23,902 bases of DNA from a virus. The stretch lies in IMG/VR virus record IMGVR_UViG_3300020454_000085, positions 1-23,902 of that record; one strand, written 5' to 3'. The notes beneath the pieces are model-generated. The model did not search any database. It was not told the origin of the DNA and worked only from the letters and a program-made list of their open reading frames with translations. The first letter of the stretch is position 1, and each line of letters opens with the position of its first letter. The position numbers were made by a program, and so were the translations under genes. Positions 1-23,540 of this stretch are shown here, in pieces.

Positions 1-1493
1 AGAGATATCTTCTTCGCCATTTGTATGTTGTTGCACCTTGCAATTTCTTTAACAAGATCTTGCGTTGGTGTCTTCTCGTATTTCTTCTTGGCATCGATCA
101 TCCTCCTCTTAAAAATAACACGCTCGTTATACATCTTCTCCATGAGTTCGGGAAGAAAACCACGAATGTCTTTACGGTACTGTGCTCCATTAGCACATGT
201 TGCATACTCCTTGCTGATCTCAGTCTCTTGATTTAGAAACCTTTCAACGCTTGAACTGGGACATCTAGCCTCCCTGAGGGTTTCTGGTGAGATATTGTAC
301 TGCATAATAAGATGAGGGTACAAGCTATTAAGGTCAAAACTGACCACCCAATCATACTTTCCTGGAATCGGTTCCTTGACATAAGCTCCTGCGTACTTTT
401 CATCCTTATCGGATCTCTCCTTAGGTGGGATGACGATGTTCCGCTTTTTAAGATAGTTGTATATGATGTTGTCCCACATTCGGACTTGATAGAACACATC
501 AGAGTAATTAACTTTAGCATCATATGCCATAGTCAATGCTAACTGAATCAGTCCCATCTTATCCTCAAGACGGTCAACAAGTTCCACATCGATTATATTA
601 TATTCTACAAATTTTTGCCACCCATTTGTGTAGAAATCCTTAAAGGTATCAAACTCTGAGTGATCAAGTTTCTTTTGTCCCAGTTCAACACTTGCAATAT
701 AATCCAACCTATAAGACTCCTGTGCCTTATATGTAAACTTCTTATAGAGATCAAGATAATCTAACTGTGTTATACCACCAATATCGTAGGTGTTATATCT
801 ACGACCTTTGATATAAATTTCTCTTTGTGATACTAAACCCCAAGGTGATAACCTACGAGTTAACTTCTCACCAACAATCCTATCAAGTCTTTTAGTAAGG
901 TATGGTATATCAAACAGTTGAATGTTCCATCCAGTCACAATGTCTGGAGTGTTGGTCATCCACCAATTAATAAAATCATTCAATAAATCATATTCATTAT
1001 TGAACTGCCTATAAACAACATTATCTTTCTTGTTCTTAAATGAACCTACACCCCATGTGATAATATCTTTTGTATTATAATTCTGCATTGATATTAGTAG
1101 AATCTCTTGATCAGCAGATTCTACATCGGGGAATCCATTCTCCGATCTGGTTTCAATATCAATTGTGTACAAACGAATTTTACTGATATCAAACTTGATC
1201 TCATCCTCAGGATAAGTATCAGAAATATATTGATAGATGAATCTATCTTGCCCATAGACATCAAAGTTTTCTACAAACTCATATCTCTTTACAAAATCTC
1301 GTGACTCTCTTACAGTACCAGGTTTAATCTTCTCAACATACTCTCCTTCTAGGGTTTGGTACTTTGTTTTTTTCTTTGCAGATACAAACAAAGTAGGAGA
1401 GTATTTCTCACGGAACTGGAAATACTCTCCTCTGTCATAACCACGAACGAGGAAGTGATCCCCGATCATAACTACATTAGTATAAAACTTCAT
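1..1493 (-). CDS. 43: DNA polymerase gp43 (3' part beyond the window)
   Basis: Family B replicative DNA polymerase of T4 type, with proofreading exonuclease. About 497 residues are visible from the ATG at 1491-1493, and the frame runs off the left edge, so the palm motif C and thumb are missing. The exonuclease I motif DIETRSENGFPD is read near 1110-1150. The polymerase motif A region reads VVSFDLNSLYPHLIMQYNIS near 290-350, matching the T4 DLTSLYPS segment. The start overlaps the stop of the upstream 88-residue gene as ATGA, which suggests translational coupling. The gene closes the replication block that also holds RegA, gp62, gp44 and gp45. Identity is certain from the motifs; only the C-terminus cannot be judged. 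I saw no split or intein in the visible part. Confidence 0.96.
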   Translation of the reverse strand, partial: MKFYTNVVMIGDHFLVRGYDRGEYFQFREKYSPTLFVSAKKKTKYQTLEGEYVEKIKPGTVRESRDFVKRYEFVENFDVYGQDRFIYQYISDTYPEDEIKFDISKIRLYTIDIETRSENGFPDVESADQEILLISMQNYNTKDIITWGVGSFKNKKDNVVYRQFNNEYDLLNDFINWWMTNTPDIVTGWNIQLFDIPYLTKRLDRIVGEKLTRRLSPWGLVSQREIYIKGRRYNTYDIGGITQLDYLDLYKKFTYKAQESYRLDYIASVELGQKKLDHSEFDTFKDFYTNGWQKFVEYNIIDVELVDRLEDKMGLIQLALTMAYDAKVNYSDVFYQVRMWDNIIYNYLKKRNIVIPPKERSDKDEKYAGAYVKEPIPGKYDWVVSFDLNSLYPHLIMQYNISPETLREARCPSSSVERFLNQETEISKEYATCANGAQYRKDIRGFLPELMEKMYNERVIFKRRMIDAKKKYEKTPTQDLVKEIARCNNIQMAKKIS

Positions 1494-1756
1494 TCAATAA
1501 CCTTTTCGTATGCCTCTAGCAATTCTTTTGCAGGGTCTAACAAAGTAAGTATAGCATCTGATGATATCATACACTTATTATCTGTTGTTAAATTCTGACC
1601 TGGCCACCTATGCAATCTTTCTTTCCAATCACCTTCACCAACAAACTCAACAGGATCTGTTAGTTCACAATCGGGTTCACCAATTTCAGCACCAACTTCT
1701 CTGATCTTTGAGATCAATACTTTTTTGTCATATTTTAAAACAAGAATCTTAACCAT
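1490..1756 (-). CDS. small beta-rich protein, paralogue A (Sm-like?)
   Basis: 88-residue protein of unknown function directly upstream of gp43. It starts with KILVLKYDKKVLISKIREV, has DPVEF in the middle, then a Trp followed by an acidic turn, and ends with LDPAKELLEAYEKVIE. This layout matches the next gene upstream (1756-2067) and the gene at 19717-20127: a first strand plus a turn and an 'IxEV' strand, a Pro-hydrophobic-Glu strand, a Trp strand, a closing strand, then a short helix with Tyr. I infer a small barrel of Sm-like type, but this rests on pattern only. The start is set by a TAATG overlap with the upstream gene, and the stop overlaps the gp43 start as ATGA. It is therefore probably co-translated with the polymerase. 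A role in replication or RNA binding is a guess. Confidence 0.8.
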   Translation of the reverse strand: MVKILVLKYDKKVLISKIREVGAEIGEPDCELTDPVEFVGEGDWKERLHRWPGQNLTTDNKCMISSDAILTLLDPAKELLEAYEKVIE

Positions 1757-2067
1757 TAGTCTCTCCTCCCATTAGTTAGATCTTCATACATTTTTCTGAG
1801 ATCACCCATAGGTTCACATACAACAGAAACTGTAGAGGGGTTCAAGATGTATGTATCATCCTCAGATATCTCTAACCAAGTTCTAAGACCAATCTTTTTA
1901 ACCTCACCACCTGCTGTATTATTTTCCTCTTTGAGTTTTAATTCTGTAGTGTAAATAATTTCAAAAGGTCTGATAACTAAGTACTGACGAATATCACCAT
2001 CAGTTACTTCTTTGATGTCAGCAAGGATCTGTGTTCCATCGTTTAACACAGCAATTTTAATTGACAT
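1756..2067 (-). CDS. small beta-rich protein, paralogue B (Sm-like?)
   Basis: 103-residue protein without an assigned function. The N-terminus IKIAVLNDGTQILADIKEV is close to that of the downstream neighbour, and the segment VIRPFEIIY parallels its DPVEF. The C-terminal half has WLEISEDDTYIL, then a segment ending in EPMGDLRKMYEDL. The same order is seen in the protein at 19717-20127 (KLVSGEEVVA, KPLKVEL, WITIPDDDKEVYSV), so these are three divergent copies of one family. It is the first gene downstream of the structured RNA at 2098-2280 and its promoter, and it overlaps the next gene as TAATG. No clear Shine-Dalgarno sequence precedes the ATG (only AAAGAA). If the RNA is a leader, this gene, paralogue A and gp43 are its likely targets. 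Confidence 0.82.
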   Translation of the reverse strand: MSIKIAVLNDGTQILADIKEVTDGDIRQYLVIRPFEIIYTTELKLKEENNTAGGEVKKIGLRTWLEISEDDTYILNPSTVSVVCEPMGDLRKMYEDLTNGRRD

Positions 2068-2097
2068 TTCTTTATAACAAAAATTTTGGGGTGGGAG

Positions 2098-2280
2098 GTT
2101 GGGTTCCTGTGTACCAACAATAGATGGGCATTTCTACAGTTAGAAAATCATCTATGCCTGAGACCCGACTGGTAAGTCGATTCTGCTCTCGCAGCAGCAC
2201 CACCTGTGTCTCATCACCTTAACCAGCTATATGCCAGTAAGTTTATTCAGTCACTCCCGTGTCAGTTCCGTCGAACCAAC
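2098..2280 (-). ncRNA. structured RNA, leader or independent small RNA
   Basis: This holds no gene but folds compactly on the minus strand. The ends pair (2273-2280 with 2098-2106, GTTGGTTC against GAACCCAAC, one bulge). A helix TGAGAC/GTCTCA (2208-2213 with 2159-2164) encloses two hairpins: CTGC-GAGA-GCAG at 2183-2194, which has a GNRA loop only on this strand, and a 5-bp hairpin at 2166-2179. A third arm pairs 2149-2155 with 2120-2126 (7 bp) and, inside it, 2141-2146 with 2131-2136 (6 bp, 4-nt loop). The 5' end falls at the predicted start of the promoter at 2287-2315. A second GTTGG near 2112-2116 could compete for the closing CCAAC, so a switch is possible. It may be a 5' leader of the gene at 1756-2067, since no terminator is seen after it. 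The RNA class is not recognised. Confidence 0.62.
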
Positions 2281-2286
2281 AAATAT

Positions 2287-7789: not shown

Positions 7790-8730
7790 TTGAATTCACA
7801 CTCCACCATGATTTCGGTTAATGCTGCTAGAAGATTTATCTCTTGATCAGCAACAAATGCTATTTGATATTGATACTTAGCAATTATAAGAACAGATGCA
7901 GCAATAGAAGGACCATCAAGACTTGAATATAAAGCATCGTAGAGACGACGAAGAAGGACAGCAGGATCATTGTCCATATTAGATACCACCCACTTTCTGA
8001 CGGCAGGGAAATCTTTTTTCTTAAGCGTCTTAATAAGATCTTCAATTTTAACATCAGAAAACTCTGCTAGAATTGCACTGTCAATTTTACCGCCAACACT
8101 ATATCTTTGCAACTCATTAAGAACCCTCCTCCAATCAGGAAAATGTTTGTTAATAAGTTCTGCTAAAACTTTCTTATCTACTTCTACATTTTCTCTATCT
8201 AAAATCTCTACAAGTCTATTAAAAAAACCTACTGCAACTTCTTGTTTATCTCTACCCTTAATACCAAACTCAACCACAGCACATCTCGAATGGAGGGGTT
8301 CAATGATTTTATTTTTGTAGTTGCATGTGAAAATGAATCTGCAGTTTTTTTGGAACTCCTCAATACTCGCTCTGAGAAGGAGTTGTACATCGGGAGTGGT
8401 ATTGTCTGCCTCATCGATGATGATGACTTTATGTTTCGACTCACTCGTGAGAGATACCGTAGACGCAAAGTTCTTGGCATTATTCCTAACAGTGTCGAGA
8501 AACCTGCCTTCATCAGATCCGTTAATGACATAAGAATCTACTCCCAATTGCTTGCACAGTGCCTTAGCAACTGTAGTCTTTCCACATCCAGCAGGACCAG
8601 AGAGAAGCAAGTTTGGCACTTCTCCTTTATTTAGAAATTCTCTAAAGGTTTTCTTAATACTCTCAGGGAGAATACATTCATCAATTGTTTGGGGTCTGTA
8701 TTTTTCAACCCATAAAAAATCATTGTTCAC
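7786..8730 (-). CDS. 44: clamp loader ATPase gp44
   Basis: 314-residue AAA+ ATPase, large subunit of the clamp loader that opens gp45 with gp62. The Walker A motif GPAGCGKT is at residues 45-52, Walker B IIIDEAD near 101-107, and the SRC arginine-finger motif in EPLHSRCAVVEFG. The N-terminal FLWVEKYRPQTIDE is the usual RFC-like box. The start is GTG at 8728-8730, overlapping the stop of a 27-codon upstream ORF as GTGA. The nearby ATG at 8721-8723 is out of frame. The stop overlaps the 68-residue gene as ATGA. Confidence 0.96.
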   Translation of the reverse strand: MNNDFLWVEKYRPQTIDECILPESIKKTFREFLNKGEVPNLLLSGPAGCGKTTVAKALCKQLGVDSYVINGSDEGRFLDTVRNNAKNFASTVSLTSESKHKVIIIDEADNTTPDVQLLLRASIEEFQKNCRFIFTCNYKNKIIEPLHSRCAVVEFGIKGRDKQEVAVGFFNRLVEILDRENVEVDKKVLAELINKHFPDWRRVLNELQRYSVGGKIDSAILAEFSDVKIEDLIKTLKKKDFPAVRKWVVSNMDNDPAVLLRRLYDALYSSLDGPSIAASVLIIAKYQYQIAFVADQEINLLAALTEIMVECEFK

Positions 8731-8810
8731 TTTTTAATAAGTCCCAATTTGTAAATTAGATATAGAGACAATATTGTCCAAAATAGTATTTCTAAAGCAG
8801 GGTTAGTCAT
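8727..8810 (-). CDS. 27-residue membrane micro-protein
   Basis: Short ORF of 27 residues that is mostly one hydrophobic helix: MTNPALEILFWTILSLYLIY followed by KLGLIKK. The predicted membrane segment covers about residues 5-22, with a basic tail. The ATG overlaps the upstream gene's stop as ATGA and its own stop overlaps the GTG of gp44 as GTGA. It therefore exactly bridges two genes with no spare base. This double coupling is the main evidence that it is translated. The function is unknown; it could be a membrane anchor or a lysis-related peptide, or serve only to couple gp44 translation. Confidence 0.6.
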   Translation of the reverse strand: MTNPALEILFWTILSLYLIYKLGLIKK

Positions 8811-10649: not shown

Positions 10650-11282
10650 TCATCCTTTTTGAATATTGTGTACATTGAAACTCATAGTGATCCTCTCTAC
10701 ATCGCTAGTAAACGGATAGACAGTATGTCTAAGAGTTGCTGGAAACAAATAAAGTTCACCTGTTTTTGGAACAACTTTAAATGATCCAGAGTATTCAAAA
10801 CCATCTTCACCATGAATAAATTCCAATTGACCAGAACAGGGCATATTAGTTTTAACAGTATTCTTTGCTTCTTCCCGAATGACTTCGGGTATATCAATAA
10901 AGATTACTGAACTTAATTGTCCACTGTGATTGTGGATAGGATTAAACTCATTTCTACGCTGAAAATTAATCCAAGGACCACTACCTAGATCAAATGCAAT
11001 GTGATGGAATAGTGGTGGTGAAACAATATCAGTAAGGTTTGACATTTTTGTTTTATGTTCATGAGATTTTTCCATGTAATCATGAACATGTGGATAGACA
11101 AATTTTACAAATGCCTGACCATCTATTTTTAACTGTAATTGTTCATCAATATTTCCTGCTAATGAGTCTCCTACATTAACAGGATTAATTCTAGAGTCAT
11201 CTGCTGCATCCAGTAAAAATTGATGAAACTCCCCTGATATATTTTCTTTATATACCAGAGGAGAAAAAGGTTGTAGAATCAT
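10650..11282 (-). CDS. 2OG-Fe(II) oxygenase (HxH type)
   Basis: 210-residue putative 2-oxoglutarate, iron-dependent oxygenase. The core is NPIHNHSGQLSSVIFID, with likely iron ligands H117 and H186 and 2-oxoglutarate-binding R197 (RHTVYPF then ERITMSFN). The residue after the first His is in an H-N-H-S-G arrangement rather than the usual HxD, as in phage-type oxygenases of this group. The substrate is unknown; such enzymes in cyanophages are thought to act on proteins, nucleic acids or metabolites. The ATG overlaps the CobS stop as ATGA. Confidence 0.85.
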   Translation of the reverse strand: MILQPFSPLVYKENISGEFHQFLLDAADDSRINPVNVGDSLAGNIDEQLQLKIDGQAFVKFVYPHVHDYMEKSHEHKTKMSNLTDIVSPPLFHHIAFDLGSGPWINFQRRNEFNPIHNHSGQLSSVIFIDIPEVIREEAKNTVKTNMPCSGQLEFIHGEDGFEYSGSFKVVPKTGELYLFPATLRHTVYPFTSDVERITMSFNVHNIQKG

Positions 11283-23229: not shown

Positions 23230-23343
23230 CTATATATCTGCGTCTTTATTTAGCAATTCTATCCATTCTTCATCAGGAGTAAAAACGATAGGACCTTCTA
23301 GGATTCTTTCTTTTAATTCATCCTGAAGTTCTTCGTCGTTCAT
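23230..23343 (-). CDS. 37-residue ORF upstream of the glycine-rich gene
   Basis: Short acidic ORF: MNDEELQDELKERILEGPIV, then FTPDEEWIELLNKDADI. It begins 28 nt after the end of the pseudoknot RNA and precedes the glycine-rich gene by 21 nt. The end of the ORF contains the CTAAATA box used by that gene. Its composition is sensible for a real protein and no stop interrupts it, but the binding site before the ATG is weak (AAAGA). It may be a regulated small peptide or a spacer ORF. Confidence 0.55.
   Translation of the reverse strand: MNDEELQDELKERILEGPIVFTPDEEWIELLNKDADI
23247..23253 (-). promoter_or_regulatory. late promoter candidate CTAAATA for the glycine-rich gene
   Basis: CTAAATAAAG lies 39 nt upstream of the ATG at 23206-23208, inside the 37-codon ORF. 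Confidence 0.5.
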
Positions 23344-23370: not shown

Positions 23371-23447
23371 TTGGTAGGTTCCTATAGCCGCTTATCCTGA
23401 ACCTACCAAAGGGGATAACCGCAGTCGTAGGTAGCGAAACAAACGAC
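23371..23447 (-). ncRNA. predicted pseudoknot RNA upstream of a 37-codon ORF
   Basis: On the minus strand a 5-6 bp hairpin (GTCGT/ACGAC, 23443-23447 with 23424-23428) is followed by an 11-bp helix TTGGTAGGTTC/GAACCTACCAA (23399-23409 with 23371-23381). The loop of that helix holds GGATAA (23392-23397), which can pair with TTATCC (23413-23418) just upstream. That makes a classical H-type pseudoknot. The RNA starts at the predicted start of the promoter at 23454-23462 and ends 28 nt before the 37-codon ORF. It is a strong candidate for a cis-regulatory RNA; its class is unknown. Confidence 0.62.
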
Positions 23448-23453
23448 TCATAC

Positions 23454-23462
23454 ATTATAACA
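23454..23462 (-). promoter_or_regulatory. extended -10 promoter before the pseudoknot RNA
   Basis: TGTTATAAT on the minus strand (TATAAT at 23454-23459). The predicted start near 23447 coincides with the first base of the RNA's 5' hairpin. I see no clear -35 box. It lies between the Leu tRNA and the RNA. Confidence 0.65.
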
Positions 23463-23467
23463 CAAAA

Positions 23468-23540
23468 TAGGAGTGGTGGGAGTCGAACCCACACTGTAGA
23501 GATTTTAAGTCTCCTGTCTCTGCCGTTGGACTACACTCCC
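23468..23540 (-). tRNA. tRNA-Leu (anticodon UAA), short variable arm
   Basis: 73 nt with a 7-bp acceptor stem (GGGAGTG/CACTCCT, G1-U72), a short 3-bp D-stem, an anticodon stem GGAGA/TCTCT around CTTAAAA, and a T-arm GTGGG-TTCGACT-CCCAC. The anticodon is TAA, for UUA. The variable region is only 5 nt, whereas bacterial Leu tRNAs normally have a long arm. No CCA is encoded. Confidence 0.85.

Follow-up and report, generated by a model that had tools for sequence, protein, structure and literature searches.

The structured RNAs manA (RF01745) and wcaG (RF01761) were proposed as cis-regulatory riboswitch candidates (PMC2864571) and are still described in those terms (PMC9964418, PMC9602691); for manA, this cis-regulatory assignment is shared by Rfam and by its discoverers (PMC2864571). 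A further point of reference is provided by the theta ribozymes, HDV-like RNAs that are associated with tRNAs, at tRNA 3′ ends, and have been reported from gut phages (PMC10879173). Here we analyse a stretch of viral DNA of 23,902 nucleotides (IMG/VR record IMGVR_UViG_3300020454_000085, positions 1 to 23,902; hereafter the window), in which a first-pass annotation had proposed a pseudoknotted riboswitch ahead of a small peptide. Judged by comparison with its relatives, this pseudoknot RNA is a real, previously undescribed folded RNA family of marine cyanophages. Its fold, covariation, promoter position, copy number and gene contexts were read from sequence, and we infer its ends, its release and its action in trans.

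A pseudoknotted RNA beside a viral tRNA

An extended −10 promoter, a 5′ hairpin at the predicted start, an 11-bp helix and a 6-nt pairing upstream had all been annotated at the locus, and all are present on the minus strand. The features used below, including a manA RNA elsewhere in the window, are as follows.

23462 to 23371, minus strand: RNA locus with promoter, comprising an extended −10, a 5′ hairpin and an H-type pseudoknot (from sequence)
23454..23462, minus strand: extended −10 promoter TGT-TATAAT, with TATAAT at 23459-23454 (from sequence)
23424..23447, minus strand: P1, the 5′ hairpin GUCGU...ACGAC, whose first G is the predicted transcription start
23413..23421, minus strand: 5′ strand of pseudoknot helix S1, CGGUUAUCC, with compensatory changes at five pairs
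23410..23412, minus strand: L1, the conserved CCUU of the family, here partly taken into a longer stem
23399..23409, minus strand: 5′ strand of S2, UUGGUAGGUUC, with compensatory changes at six pairs, 99.3% paired
23389..23397, minus strand: 3′ strand of S1, GGAUAAGCG, pairing with 23421-23413
23382..23388, minus strand: L3, GCUAUAG, highly conserved (family form GCGAUAG)
23371..23381, minus strand: 3′ strand of S2, GAACCUACCAA, pairing with 23409-23399
23230..23343, minus strand: 37-codon open reading frame (ORF), starting 27 nt after S2
23468..23540, minus strand: tRNA-Leu(UAA), 73 nt, directly upstream of the RNA (ARAGORN and Rfam)
2088..2281, minus strand: manA RNA (RF01745), before an Sm-like gene (Rfam, 179 bits, E 1e-48)

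At this locus the first G of P1 lies 6 nt past the −10, and the core after P1 is CUGCGGUUAUCCCCUUUGGUAGGUUCAGGAUAAGCGGCUAUAGGAACCUACCAA (23424-23371, minus strand), numbered so that its first C is position 3; in this numbering, S1 joins positions 6-14 with 32-40. The loop GGAUAA (23397-23392) pairs with UUAUCC (23418-23413), and the annotated 6-nt pairing is thus real, but the helix to which it belongs is longer, running over nine steps with a G.G mismatch. S2 has 11 bp in the window and mostly 8-12 bp among relatives. Folded alone, the window sequence has a z score of −1.67, which is only mildly unusual, as 12 of 200 shuffles fold equally well, and relatives were therefore needed for proof of structure.

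Leucine tRNAs are expected to have a long variable arm. The tRNA-Leu(UAA) at 23468-23540 (minus strand) is without one, as are its counterparts in P-SSM7 and P-RSM6; the version in S-SSM7 is 84 nt.

Distribution and copy number

Three pattern scans of IMG/VR, together with named phages that were fetched, gave at least 243 members in at least 242 loci, a few of which repeat a record. At least 242 marine viral records contain the RNA, among them P-SSM2, S-SKS1, Bellamy, ACG-2014f and S-B43. With the RNA region of the window as query, BLAST recovered the core from P-SSM2, P-SSM5, S-SKS1 and two single-cell viruses (86-96% identity), all of which hold it in gene contexts other than that of the window, and queries with divergent members brought in Bellamy, S-B43, S-B05, RB11-B, S-H68, SynMITS9220M01, S-SCSM2R and S-SM2, along with many ACG-2014f genomes. 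A bacterial origin was rejected, as a scan in which each GTDB species was represented by one genome yielded only two matches, whose R1 E-values (0.035 and 0.77) are at the level of chance. Across IMG/VR, the GTDB-based scan and BLAST, cyanophages and viral contigs were the only sources of the family.

One copy per record was found throughout records W04-W14, which include P-SSM2, S-SKS1, Bellamy, S-B43, RB11-B, SynMITS9220M01, S-SCSM2R and ACG-2014f. Two copies were seen only in contig G001, where they score equally and lie on opposite strands, and in contig L103, which holds both subfamilies described below (CUGCGG-type and CUGCUG-type), at 8706-8760 and 10691-10743.

No copy is found in S-SSM7 or P-SSM7. 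The latter, which of the phages found comes closest over the tRNA stretch of the window (92%), has three tRNAs without the RNA; at the tRNA site, the RNA is absent from P-SSM7, P-RSM6 and S-SSM7, the closest phages there. Synteny at this site therefore cannot test the RNA, and the comparison of the gp23-tRNA-UvsY region that had been suggested at first pass would have misled.

None of the 4227 families in Rfam 15 fits the RNA in the window, in 33 further loci or in two core regions, and cmscan of the window locus and two divergent relatives, likewise proposed with the annotation, returned no family match to E 10. The earlier view that this could be a new class, unlike the glutamine riboswitches, is borne out by these searches. 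No published description of the RNA was found in the literature within reach, which mostly did not extend to subscription papers and preprints.

Covariation and the conserved fold

In an alignment (A2) of 83 distinct cores among the matches listed, 99.5% of pair cells are standard pairs, and in 8 of 15 pairs both partners change. Covariation is 0.366 compared with 0.137 in shuffles, and none of 500 shuffles reaches the observed value. A wider set, of 85 distinct cores among the matches listed, is 99.5% paired with a covariation of 0.508 versus 0.180 (0/500 shuffles), and 99.7% of its S1 cells are paired once the G.G step is excluded. Any position that a search pattern specified is invariant by construction; the first pattern, however, specified just the loop side and the 3′ strands and left the 5′ strands free, and 5′-strand pairing is therefore a real test. 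An independent test is provided by cultured phages found by BLAST outside A2: pair 12-34, invariant within A2, is C-G in place of U-A in Bellamy, S-SCSM2R, RB11-B and S-H68, and so is pair 9-37 in SynMITS9220M01. Covariation of both helices had been the proposed check of the structure, and compensatory changes are found in both, at a level that 0/500 shuffles attain; loss of a helix without compensation, which would have spoken against it, was not seen in the relatives.

The exact extent of S1 emerged from the divergent phages. In S-B43, RB11-B and S-H68, CUGCUG...AGAGG replaces CUGCGG...AGCGG, an exchange that suggested pair 7-39, and a scan for the variant then gave a second large subfamily. 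Pair 7-39 (alignment columns 5/37) is GC in 58, UA in 25 and UG in 2 of the 85 cores, with 0 mismatches, and the G8.G38 step is replaced by C-G in three of the 85. S1 is therefore a nine-step helix with a single G.G mismatch, laid out as C6-G40, G7-C39, the G8.G38 mismatch and then six pairs.

A P1 stem of at least 5 bp ending at the same base occurs in 72 of 83 distinct upstream regions, compared with 24% in shuffles; its pair types vary at positions 2-5, and the stem persists even in loci where the preceding gene runs over its 5′ strand. CCCUU is invariant in alignments A2 and A3 (in members from the third search pattern it is fixed by construction), and a relaxed pattern recovered the L3 variants GACAG and GAAAG beside GCGAUAG.

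Promoters and downstream genes

Among the matches listed, the −10-to-P1 spacing is 6 nt in 118 of 150 distinct regions that have a −10 and P1 if the best-scoring −10 is taken, and in 82 of 150 under the stricter choice of the nearest −10-like site. Judged from this spacing, P1 would usually start where transcription is expected to begin, or right beside that point. A stand-alone small RNA would be expected to have a promoter to itself and its first helix at the transcription start; this arrangement is found in these loci and not in those without a −10. No −10 was recognised in 29 of 182 upstream regions among the matches listed, some of them with P1 inside the preceding gene, where the 5′ end would need processing. 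In the S-SKS1 group, TTGACA-N17-TATAAT precedes the RNA and, 4-5 nt after it, TTGACT-N17-TATAAT serves the next gene; three loci (L067, L070 and L135) have the order promoter, RNA, tRNA-Pro and second promoter. Several copies stand after a gene with no promoter seen and a tRNA next.

A tRNA is the next element after the RNA in 66 of 183 distinct loci among the matches listed (Arg-UCU 54, Pro-UGG 11, Lys-UUU 1), and the gap between S2 and the tRNA is 2-3 nt in 60 of these 66. In the remaining distinct loci among the matches listed, the RNA stands ahead of more than 20 gene kinds, including Sm-like, purM and its neighbour, pstS, a HAD-type hydrolase, a tail protein and small membrane proteins; several of these names were read from protein sequence only, and other downstream genes are of no recognised kind. 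Wherever a gene was recognisable, the members examined lie just upstream of it and codirectional with it, and in protein-gene loci among the matches listed the start codon is mostly 17-22 nt after S2. Most loci of subfamily A precede protein genes with the structure strictly conserved, and 18 contigs of the hsp20/Sm-like type scanned with Rfam contain no tRNA. In the 70 nt that follow the RNA, none of 168 distinct loci among the matches listed has a terminator; the RNA is therefore not a terminator-type switch, and this result (0/168), with the stem mostly 17-22 nt from the start codon, reveals no conserved expression platform of a metabolite riboswitch.

These contexts bear directly on the proposed peptide. 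The 37-codon ORF does lie behind the RNA in the window (23343-23230), but a link between the two is not supported, as the window, L012 and L048 are the sole cases among the matches listed in which this ORF comes next. It has weak relatives in a stretch of S-SSM7 and of S-SSM6a (53-56% identity, E 2e-4 to 7e-4), and since S-SSM7 is without the RNA, the pairing of RNA and peptide in the window looks incidental. The layout of a riboswitch with a downstream peptide is likewise not supported, given the variety of genes and tRNAs that follow and the next gene's own promoter in the S-SKS1 group.

Two side observations concern neighbouring sequence. In L085 (minus strand), within the 200 bases after the RNA, and likewise in L075 and L100, one or two RNA-like units bounded by GTTAAGG...CCTTAAC precede the next promoter; one such unit in L085 resembles a tRNA remnant. 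In L027 (2000-2560) and L086, the tRNA after the RNA looks split after its D-arm by a stretch encoding a zinc-finger-like protein of 153 aa (MNSCLKCGSPTKTKFC...), perhaps through homing-endonuclease insertion.

Neighbourhood of manA, wcaG and Sm-like genes

Many of these phages have in common a region running from regA to hsp20, a slot and an Sm-like gene. The slot holds manA in the window and the pseudoknot RNA in many relatives, in which manA, if also present, lies after regA; the two RNAs thus swap slots between phages, and each stays single copy. In ACG-2014f, the pseudoknot RNA (126902-126954) is followed by tRNA-Arg from 126955, manA at 127030-127240 and tRNA-Asn from 127242, and the order in S-H68, S-B43 and RB11-B is pseudoknot RNA, tRNA-Arg, manA and tRNA-Thr. 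The pseudoknot RNA is not itself manA, whose model has no match at the locus and whose true copy in the window is at 2088-2281. Neither is it wcaG, whose model also gives no match and which S-SKS1 carries at a locus separate from that of the pseudoknot RNA (L007, 2619 and 2001, respectively).

manA (window 2088-2281, minus strand; L211-L213) is single copy in every tested phage that has it. It lies between two tRNAs in four phages, with about 1 nt on either side, and elsewhere its 5′ end is about 6 nt after TATAAT, as for a separate RNA gene. The wcaG model matches above its gathering score in six of seven further phages. A strong intrinsic terminator lies within 10-12 nt of wcaG (L007 2619-2750; L214, L215 and L216 after about 1600) in four phages, namely S-SKS1, Bellamy, SynMITS9220M01 and S-SCSM2R, with a −10-like sequence just after it in three; this arrangement suggests that wcaG may be transcribed on its own and not as a 5′ UTR.

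In the window, the gene after the RNA slot (1756-2067, minus strand) matches DUF6561 and, weakly, Sm_like (PF16243), and the next gene (1490-1756, minus strand) is similar. Sm-like RNA-binding proteins would be natural partners for the pseudoknot and manA RNAs.

Candidate roles of the pseudoknot RNA

We give a slightly better than even chance to the pseudoknot RNA being a small stand-alone phage RNA, itself the product and acting in trans, rather than a peptide switch. An RNA of about 75 nt would be transcribed from its own promoter, with P1 as its 5′ end. Where a tRNA follows, RNase P would cut the RNA from it; where an mRNA lies downstream, other nucleases would cut the RNA free, or no cut would be made. 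Once made, the RNA would use its invariant unpaired CCUU and GCGAUAG to act in trans on a host or phage partner. A small RNA gene fits best because the RNA is single copy, has its own start, is tightly packed against tRNAs and promoters and moves freely between slots.

The leading alternative, credible although we consider it unlikely, is a cis-acting leader, a structured 5′ UTR controlling the stability, translation or read-through of whichever transcript carries it, for example by 5′-end protection, as a put-like antiterminator or as a protein-binding operator. The usual position of the RNA, right after a promoter and ahead of a codirectional gene with mostly 17-22 nt to the start codon, is as such a leader would have it and would count against a stand-alone RNA, but small crowded phage genomes would give the same gap and codirectional layout anyway. 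Only a single transcript per phage carries the RNA, and which one varies, whereas a general stability or antitermination leader should occur at more than one; a general leader is therefore disfavoured. Further difficulties are the second promoter after the RNA in the S-SKS1 group and the several copies without a visible promoter that precede a tRNA, where RNase P would cut the RNA off.

The metabolite riboswitch with an H-type pseudoknot aptamer, as proposed in the first-pass annotation, is improbable. The compact pseudoknot with invariant loop bases does have the look of SAM-II or preQ1, and some copies stand ahead of purM. A gene-specific riboswitch should, however, track a pathway, and no common pathway lies downstream of this RNA. 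In a third of loci among the matches listed, only a tRNA is directly behind it, from which RNase P would part it, and the gene-specific reading is therefore disfavoured. There is likewise no terminator platform and no Rfam riboswitch match, and nothing suggests a hidden start codon, the stem ending mostly 17-22 nt before it.

We regard as very improbable a signal for tRNA operon expression or processing only, with the protein-gene copies as remnants after tRNA loss: a third of loci among the matches listed abut tRNAs and the RNA in the window follows a tRNA trio, but strict structural conservation in the mostly protein-coding contexts of subfamily A, together with the 18 tRNA-free hsp20/Sm-like-type contigs, argues otherwise. 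Least probable of all is a self-cleaving ribozyme maturing tRNAs or mRNA 5′ ends, which would accord with the pseudoknot, its tight apposition to tRNAs and the tRNA association of theta ribozymes in phages (PMC10879173), but not with the 5′ side of the tRNA that the RNA occupies where theta ribozymes occupy the 3′ end (PMC10879173), with the single base where an HDV-like P3 is needed or with the lack of an Rfam ribozyme match.

The stand-alone reading can be extended, tentatively and at somewhat less than even chances, to a set of single-copy structured RNAs of marine cyanophages, comprising the pseudoknot RNA, manA and perhaps wcaG, which would be expressed from their own promoters or excised from tRNA operons, and would act on the host in trans during infection. 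Whatever its role, the pseudoknot RNA is a well-supported family not represented in Rfam and carried by viruses that rank among the most abundant in the sea, cultured phages included.

Comparison with known systems

SAM-II and preQ1 aptamers are compact H-type pseudoknots whose overall topology is like that of the pseudoknot RNA, which differs from them in matching no Rfam family and in having contexts unlike those of metabolite control. The glnA (RF01739) and Downstream-peptide (RF01704) RNAs resemble it in their cyanobacterial and phage setting and in the short ORF downstream in the window; a glutamine riboswitch of this kind was rejected, with no cmscan match to E 10 and no consistent downstream peptide or nitrogen-assimilation gene. 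Theta ribozymes also recall it as a pseudoknotted RNA beside phage tRNAs, at the opposite, 3′ end of the tRNA and with a different topology. In HDV-like folds, P3 with its loop has to fit between the second strand and the third, whereas here one base separates the S2 5′ strand from the S1 3′ strand; the HDV-like or theta topology was rejected for want of room for P3 and because the RNA is not at a tRNA 3′ end. With rnaC and rnaD, stable RNAs of the T4 tRNA cluster and thus non-tRNA RNAs of T4-type phages beside tRNA-Arg, the analogy is one of place only: their sequences differ and they do not match model R1 (best E 0.68), so homology was rejected.

The closest parallels are manA and wcaG. Like the pseudoknot RNA, manA has a promoter, about 6 nt and then its first helix, with the next gene 15-20 nt on, and it occurs as a single copy in the same phages; unlike it, manA measures about 190-210 nt and folds differently, and the two show no sequence match. 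wcaG is likewise present in one copy in S-SKS1 and in all seven further phages tested, and differs in its length of 98 nt and its fold. All three RNAs are single copy in the tested phages and not bound to one gene, and in several phages they are separate units beside tRNAs, promoters or terminators. The comparison thus calls into question the reading given to manA and wcaG since 2010, and offers a concrete alternative for all three, as phage small RNAs instead of riboswitches.
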